Source of the DNA: a virus
DNA: 28,004 bases
Reading direction: 5' to 3' (one strand)
Virus record (IMG/VR): IMGVR_UViG_3300048109_000121
Coordinates: 1 to 28,004 of that record
In this document: positions 19,990-21,229 of the stretch, piece by piece
Layout: every line of letters begins with the position of its first letter
Position numbering within the stretch: the stretch's first letter is position 1
Notes under the pieces: generated by a model
The model's input: only the letters and a program-made list of their open reading frames with translations
The model's database searches: none
What the model was told of the DNA's origin: nothing
Program-made: the position numbers and the translations under genes

Positions 19990-20018
19990 AAAAAAGGGGA
20001 GGACGGTAACGCCCTCCC
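19990..20018 (-). terminator. Terminator of gene 32
   Basis: On the minus strand GGGAGGGCG-TTAC-CGTCCTCCC (19997-20018, one G·U pair) followed by CTTTTTT. A classic strong intrinsic terminator 14 bases after the gene 32 stop. uvsX begins about 25 bases further on, so some read-through is expected. Confidence 0.92.
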
Positions 20019-20031
20019 AATTGACTATTAG

Positions 20032-21066
20032 TTAGTCTGATTTACGAGAACGGATCATTGCGAGAATGTCTGATGCATCTTTTCCTGCACCAGTATCTGC
20101 TGATGCAGTTGCTGCTACAGGAGCTGCCTCCGCCGCTACTTCTTCATCTGACTTGAACGGAATATCATCTACTGCTTTAGGAGCAGGCGTAGCTGCTACT
20201 GGTTTCACAGGTGCTGCTGGTGCAGACTGTGTTGCTGTTCGAGTAGGTGAAGAGTTATTTTTTTCAGCGCCTTCTGGAACATCTAATCCATATGGCTTAT
20301 AAAAATTACCCCAACGCATTGGATCGTATAGTTCACCGTCAACTGATGCTTCAAACATTTCCATGATAACGTTAATTTCGTCTTGTGAAGGACGTTTTGG
20401 CATGAACTCATTCAAGTCAAATAGACCATTTGTTTCGATTGCCTGACGTTCTGCTTCATTCAGGGAGCGTTCTTTACGAGCCCAATTTGATGTAGAATAA
20501 TCTGCATACTGACCTTTTTGTGTCTTAGTCAAACGGAAGTCAGTACCCGCATCATAATCAGTTGGTAGATTTTCCATATCGGGATCCATCAACGCTGCTT
20601 TCAACAGCTTGAAGATTTGTGGACCAATTACGAAACGACGGATAGGATTCTCCGGAGATTCTTCGTTCAGTGGATTAGTAACTACAAACCCTTGAAAAAT
20701 ATATGAACGTTTCTTCCAGTACTTACGACCCAAATCTTCCATCGCAGGATCTTTGAACCAAGGACGGATTTCTGCATGTACGGGACATGTGTCACCCCAC
20801 ATTTCAATGCATGGAACTTGTACGATAATTGGCTTTTGTTCGCCACCAACAACACCTGCGAAAGGCATTTTGATTACTTGTCGTTCACGCCAGAAAAATG
20901 TGTTACCATTATCTTCGTCTGGAAGGAATCGAATAACCGCAGTGCTATCATTTTCCATATTCCAGAACGGATAGATTGCATCTGTACCACGATTTTGATT
21001 AGATTTATTTTCTGCTTTGTTTTCTTGTGCCAGCAGTTTTGCACGGATTTCTGCTAAGGTTGCCAT
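20032..21066 (-). CDS. 32: Single-stranded DNA-binding protein gp32
   Basis: 344 residues (T4 gp32 301). It coats single-stranded DNA and organises replication and recombination proteins. The N-terminal basic LAEIRAKLLAQENK helix matches the cooperativity domain. The core carries a zinc knuckle C86-x7-C94-x2-H97 (CIEMWGDTCPVH); the fourth ligand is not obvious, since T4 uses His-Cys-Cys-Cys. The aromatic core includes NMENDSTAVIRFLPD. Residues 275-330 are an Ala/Pro-rich linker, and the C-terminus is DASDILAMIRSRKSD, more basic at the end than T4's acidic tail. It has its own promoter and a repeat-bearing leader, and GGAG upstream of the ATG. Confidence 0.94.
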   Translation of the reverse strand: MATLAEIRAKLLAQENKAENKSNQNRGTDAIYPFWNMENDSTAVIRFLPDEDNGNTFFWRERQVIKMPFAGVVGGEQKPIIVQVPCIEMWGDTCPVHAEIRPWFKDPAMEDLGRKYWKKRSYIFQGFVVTNPLNEESPENPIRRFVIGPQIFKLLKAALMDPDMENLPTDYDAGTDFRLTKTQKGQYADYSTSNWARKERSLNEAERQAIETNGLFDLNEFMPKRPSQDEINVIMEMFEASVDGELYDPMRWGNFYKPYGLDVPEGAEKNNSSPTRTATQSAPAAPVKPVAATPAPKAVDDIPFKSDEEVAAEAAPVAATASADTGAGKDASDILAMIRSRKSD

Positions 21067-21146
21067 TTTGTTTTCTCCTATATTAGCCTATATTAGCCTG
21101 TGTTAGTTTTTGTATTAGCCTAGATTTACTACCTCTCTAAGTTAAT
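21067..21146 (-). promoter_or_regulatory. Gene 32 leader with TAGGCTAATA repeats (possible autoregulatory site)
   Basis: The predicted 80-base leader is A/U-rich and unstructured in appearance. It holds two adjacent copies of TAGGCTAATA-type units (21081-21100), a degenerate copy (21101-21110) and another copy (21113-21122), ending at the ribosome site TAGGAG. T4 gp32 represses its own mRNA by cooperative binding to an unstructured leader with repeats near a pseudoknot, so these repeats are a likely equivalent. Confidence 0.6.
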
Positions 21147-21152
21147 AGATTG

Positions 21153-21181
21153 ATAATAACAGTTTTATTTATCAAAGTCAA
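21153..21181 (-). promoter_or_regulatory. Early promoter of gene 32
   Basis: Minus-strand TTGACT (21176-21181), 17-base spacer ending TGT, -10 TATTAT (21153-21158, extended TGT). It lacks the GAATC spacer block. +1 is about 21146. Confidence 0.75.
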
Positions 21182-21202: not shown

Positions 21203-21229
21203 TAAAAAAATGGAGACTAATGCCTCCAT
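21203..21229 (-). terminator. Terminator after the 21236-21496 gene
   Basis: Minus-strand ATGGAG-GCATTAGT-CTCCAT (21210-21229) followed by seven T residues. It lies just after the stop of the preceding gene and before the gene 32 promoter. Confidence 0.85.

Follow-up and report, generated by a model that had tools for sequence, protein, structure and literature searches.

Does the leader of a gp32-like gene work as the operator through which the protein controls its own translation? This question is raised by a virus sequence of 28,004 bases, the whole of which was analyzed and is called the window here. A gene for a single-stranded-DNA-binding protein (SSB) of 344 amino acids lies on its minus strand (20032–21066), where ribonucleotide reductase, helicase, UvsX, and terminase genes are also found. 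In the original prediction, this gene was regarded as gene 32 and its leader as a possible site of autogenous control. In the accessible text of two papers, the gene 32 operators of T4 and RB69 provide the precedent for autogenous repression by gp32 (PMC535899, PMC3014915). The T4 operator needs both a pseudoknot and UUAAA/UAAA repeats, as far as that part of the former paper describes it (PMC535899).

The SSB and its transcription unit

The SSB scored 31.8 bits against the Pfam gp32 family PF08804 (cut-off 26.8) and matched PHROG 1192 with an E value of 1.4e-64, together with other PHROG SSB families. The best solved-structure matches of its predicted model (mean pLDDT 70.8) were the gp32 cores of RB69 (2a1k; Z 14.3, 196 residues, rmsd 3.1) and T4 (1gpc; Z 13.8, 198 residues, rmsd 3.2). 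As modelled, the SSB has the gp32 core fold; together with the Pfam match above the cut-off and the PHROG SSB match, this bears out the gene 32 identity. A sequence search of the PDB with the SSB did not find gp32, although the fold search recovers it.

The N-terminal KRKST of T4 gp32, which starts MFKRKSTAEL as read from its first codons, is not present in this SSB, which starts MATLAEIRAKLL; we take KRKST at this position to be a mark of the cooperative form of the gp32 family. In the tail, residues at about 300–304 are DDIPF, the tip motif of bacterial SSBs, in the window and in the relatives L002, L015, and L021; the other rows of the alignment do not have this motif. The named relatives are jumbo phages, of which Phosso (54% identical) and PA5oct (52%) are the nearest by SSB alignment. 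On this basis, the window is likely to be part of a jumbo phage genome. A plasmid search for the SSB gene found none.

Three elements, all on the minus strand and recognized from the sequence, delimit the gene. A terminator-like hairpin with a T-run (21210–21229) ends the upstream unit. It is followed by a sigma70-type promoter (21153–21181) with TTGACT and TATTAT separated by 17 nt and TG before the -10 box. Another terminator-like hairpin is located directly 3' of the SSB stop codon (19997–20018). The canonical +1 is predicted at about 21146, and the distance from there to the ATG at 21066 gives the leader length of 80 nt that was originally proposed. The SSB mRNA is shown, by sequence and comparison, to be a one-gene unit with its own putative promoter, leader, and terminator. 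Among the relatives, the promoter score was at least 9 of 12 in 189 of the 216 distinct leaders. In leaders such as those of L361, L395, L202, and similar loci, a terminator-like dyad with a T-run was seen by eye; the SSB promoter has its -10 box within the 5' arm of this dyad, and terminator and promoter overlap.

Repeat units in the leaders

All three copies of GGCTAATA in the window are in the SSB leader (minus strand, 21113–21120, 21091–21098, and 21081–21088). On the same strand, unit 1, TAGGCTAATA, is at 21113–21122, a degenerate unit, CTAACA, at 21101–21106, unit 2, CAGGCTAATA, at 21091–21100, and unit 3, again TAGGCTAATA, at 21081–21090, all as read from the sequence. The tandem 10-mers are CAGGCTAATA and TAGGCTAATA, with one mismatch between the neighbours. 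Thus, the repeats and the degenerate copy that had been described are real; the two exact copies of TAGGCTAATA (21081–21090 and 21113–21122) are not in tandem. The Shine-Dalgarno AGGAG (21075–21079, minus strand) lies within TAGGAGAAAA (21071–21080), which is in the same 10-nt register as the repeats; the repeats reach the ribosome site, as had been claimed. The repeat zone covers 21077–21126, and the folded 5' portion and the promoter occupy 21127–21181.

Dinucleotide shuffles of the leader gave any 8-mer three times in 46 of 20,000 cases and four CTAAYA in 6 of 20,000. Of the 37 minus-strand ORFs of the window, only the SSB gene is preceded by an 80-nt leader that contains at least two AGGC or CTAAYA. 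UUAAA is absent from this leader and UAAA occurs once; the units there are AGGCUAAUA. The description of the units as differing from those of T4 is therefore right: they are (U)AGGC(U)A rather than UUAAA. A blastn search of the leader alone against phages gave no match. Rfam gave nothing at the gathering level in the window, and near the leader it gave only matches far below the threshold.

Relatives were collected by six scans of viral contigs, each of which contributed its best 80 of about 600 matches, so that close relatives of the queries are over-represented. After exclusion of re-fetched contigs and of L312, which is without the gene start, 348 loci were used. At least 90 nt upstream were available in 330 of these, and 216 distinct 80-nt leaders and 100 clusters (90% protein identity) were obtained. 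CTAAT/CTAAC units are present in the leaders of all of the nearest 80 relatives (best 80 of about 600 matches), with one unit visible in L027, which ends at the contig edge. The comparison of relatives that had been proposed as a check thus finds the repeats kept.

In a 62-nt leader segment, GGC[A/T] occurs at least once in 95 of the 100 clusters and at least twice in 76, compared with 6 of 95 control leaders of the next gene having at least two. Two or more AGGC were found in 52 of the 100 SSB-leader clusters (shuffling expects 5.3) versus 2 of 95 next-gene leaders, and in 3 of 100 control segments inside the SSB gene. The complement GCCT occurs at least once in the leaders of 1 of the 100 clusters; therefore, the AGGC motif is strand-specific. 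The commonest spacing of [AT]GGC[AT] is 10 nt, followed by 14 and 12. The (U)AGGC(U)A units are mostly 10–14 nt apart, and the last unit adjoins the Shine-Dalgarno. The original term "lineage-specific" seems too narrow, since the (A)GGC core is common to most of the 100 clusters, down to about 50% protein identity.

A short A/T-rich tandem of this kind might be a functionless product of chance or slippage. The conservation of the units over 100 protein clusters, with the sequence drifting around the GGC core, makes this explanation hardly credible. Alternatively, the units might be bound by another RNA-binding regulator of host or phage, like RegA, instead of by the SSB. RegA of T4 likewise binds initiation regions that are A/U-rich, according to the accessible text of one paper (PMC3014915). 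Regulators of the RegA type have many mRNA targets, whereas the dense units are nearly restricted to the SSB leader, and binding by such a protein is considered quite improbable. In a 342-kb relative, dense unit pairs were found in the leader and in two other places (control, 0).

The leaders of 16 named phages were examined, and the more distant ones have other repeat units (by eye). The Phosso leader has GGCTC repeats (by eye). In Agrobacterium phage Atu_ph07 (L189), a short hairpin upstream of 483 is followed by tandem CACAATTTAG-like units, which lead into CACAACTAAGG at the Shine-Dalgarno (by eye). This is a further kind of repeat in front of the SSB gene. A second dense array, of four GCTAATA and one CTAACA in about 110 nt, is located at about 1610–1720 on the minus strand of L457 (G005:C1). 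No long ORF, tRNA, tmRNA, or Rfam match was found there. This array might be a decoy or else a second RNA targeted by the SSB.

Two helices at the 5' end

In the window clade, the arms of two helices follow each other in the order S1–S2–S1'–S2', which is that of an H-type pseudoknot. In the window, all on the minus strand, the 5' arm of S1, CUAUU (21144–21148), spans the canonical start. It is followed by the 5' arm of S2, CUUAGA (21136–21141), the 3' arm of S1, GGUAG (21129–21133), and the 3' arm of S2, UCUAGG (21119–21124), which overlaps the first repeat unit.

When applied to T4 and RB69 as a positive control, this search finds their known pseudoknots (z -2.43 and -2.79, respectively), with loops of 1, 0, and 5. 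In the SSB leader of PA5oct (EST35_0207), it gives a pseudoknot of 9 bp and 5 bp (z -3.65). For the window sequence alone, the p values were 0.08 and 0.11, which are not significant; the leader of L001 is identical to it. Over 18 window-clade leaders, the mean z was -1.35, with p below 0.05 in 9. The 5' hairpin of the window is weak by energy (z -0.73). A folding check for a pseudoknot had been proposed with the original prediction: in the clade, two predicted helices in pseudoknot order show coordinated changes, and the window by itself does not reach significance.

The 48 promoter-bearing distinct leaders of the window clade gave 31 distinct 5' segments. In S2, the mRNA would pair through its first 12 nt with the first-repeat stretch. 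This helix has 5 bp or more in 30 of the 31 segments and 4 in L021; it is weak in the L021–L046 group. Its pair types differ on both arms at several positions. A first automatic loop-tail swap test, which covered 48 pairs, did not reach significance (3,093 of 20,000). In the later tests, the predicted +1 and the first repeat served as anchors; both the anchors and the 15 subclade representatives were picked after inspecting the leaders. With them, none of 20,000 permutations of S2 arms reached the own-arm energy for 22 distinct pairs, and 4 of 20,000 did so for the 15 representatives. For S1, in which the bases immediately following the -10 box pair with an arm further downstream, the count was also 0 of 20,000 (30 distinct leaders), the energy being -165.4 with own arms versus -112.2 with swapped arms (sd 10.05). 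By this comparison of sequences, the two predicted 5' helices of the window clade are conserved by coordinated change on both arms. This predicted 5' fold, which was missed in the original prediction, is the strongest comparative signal at the locus.

In each of the 30 distinct leaders, the 5' arm of S1 begins 1–4 nt past the -10 hexamer. This position would suit control at the DNA level, with the S1 dyad at the transcription start as the operator of a transcription factor and the repeats as further DNA sites. Such a role is very improbable: arm spacers of 9–23 nt and 26 G-U among 190 pairs are unsuited to a dimer site, and the repeats are downstream of the +1, on one strand only, and variably spaced. 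The G-U pairs and the variable arm spacing of S1, which has 7–8 bp in 20 of the 30 leaders, are as expected of RNA.

Transcription from the canonical start would leave most or part of the S1 5' arm out of the mRNA, and S2 would be a plain 5'-terminal hairpin without a pseudoknot. The coordinated changes in S1 suggest that transcription may begin earlier or that there may be another transcript. In some relatives, S1 (7–8 bp) and S2 leave a loop of 1 nt, which gives too little room for a coaxial fold of the H type. The plain pseudoknot, first recognized by eye, was kept as only one of two folds owing to the position of the S1 arm at the promoter start; the alternative, given the canonical start, is a nested 5' hairpin of S2 and an inner stem. 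Single folds also showed the repeats paired with UUAGC (codons 4–5), but this pairing was rejected: UUA is codon 4 in 8 of 29 leaders of the GCTAA type versus at least 37 of 62 of the GGCA type, and is thus no commoner with the former.

Downstream of the fold, the leader seems to be open. The 5' part folds better than shuffles (mean z -2.08 for 70 clusters and -1.03 for 18 window-type clusters), and the last 40 nt are no more structured than shuffles (z 0.03 and 0.09, respectively). In the window leader, the mean unpaired probability of the last 45 nt is 0.72. Folding thus predicts a single-stranded leader between the fold and the ribosome site. An A-rich, unstructured stretch of 40 nt behind a predicted 5'-terminal hairpin might also be a constitutive element for translation and mRNA stability, in which an A/U-rich unpaired standby region and a protective hairpin serve an abundant protein without feedback. 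This is unlikely, as a standby region does not need a specific GGC core in repeated, strand-specific units, and such units were seen in front of none of the other 36 minus-strand ORFs in the window and rarely precede the next gene in the relatives.

A candidate autogenous operator

The leader is probably a translational operator for the phage's own gp32-like SSB, autogenous and working like that of T4. The elements supported by comparison are a gp32-family protein, a single-gene unit, repeats reaching the ribosome site, and a predicted 5' structured element, and from these we infer autogenous control by the SSB. SSB in excess over the available single-stranded DNA would nucleate at the 5' fold, at the first AGGC unit, or at both. 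It would then spread cooperatively along the units and cover the ribosome site, so that its own translation stops. When single-stranded DNA builds up in replication, the SSB would leave the leader and its synthesis would resume.

Like the T4 and RB69 operators, the window has a protein of the gp32 fold, helices in H-type order (loops of 2, 2, and 4 versus 1, 0, and 5 in T4), and repeats 3' of the fold that are single-stranded, in the window by folding, up to the ribosome site. It differs from them in its units, (U)AGGC(U)A instead of UUAAA/UAAA, and in having its own sigma70 promoter, the start of which is overlapped by S1. The absence of UUAAA means that the operator would work like the UUAAA class but is not a member of it; the difference in units points to a different type, most likely with the same working. 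PA5oct has an SSB of the same family and a strong H-type pseudoknot followed by an A-rich leader, but its pseudoknot is wholly inside the predicted transcript and its leader is without AGGC tandem units. The STAXI motif, as presented in the accessible text on it, also combines tandem elements and pseudoknots near ssb and related genes, but consists of repeated pseudoknots and belongs to Enterobacteriales (PMC2864571). No STAXI match was found in the window, and no paper on the gene 32 leaders of this clade was found in the literature searched, which was mostly open-access.

A broader proposal is more tentative, and we hold it with somewhat less than even confidence: a large, mostly uncultured clade of SSBs may read a (U)AGGC(U)A code in its own mRNA, together with a 5' switch that overlaps the promoter start. 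If this is true, a fold that binds single-stranded DNA without specificity would, in many lineages, have come to recognize RNA specifically by a new code. For T4, the accessible part of one account considers it unclear how an SSB that binds any single-stranded DNA recognizes its own mRNA (PMC535899). The 216 distinct leaders with their matching proteins form a natural series in which a short, conserved RNA core stands in varied contexts, so that the question of SSB specificity is directly testable by leader and protein swaps. The comparison suggests that autogenous control of SSBs may be far wider than the T4 group.
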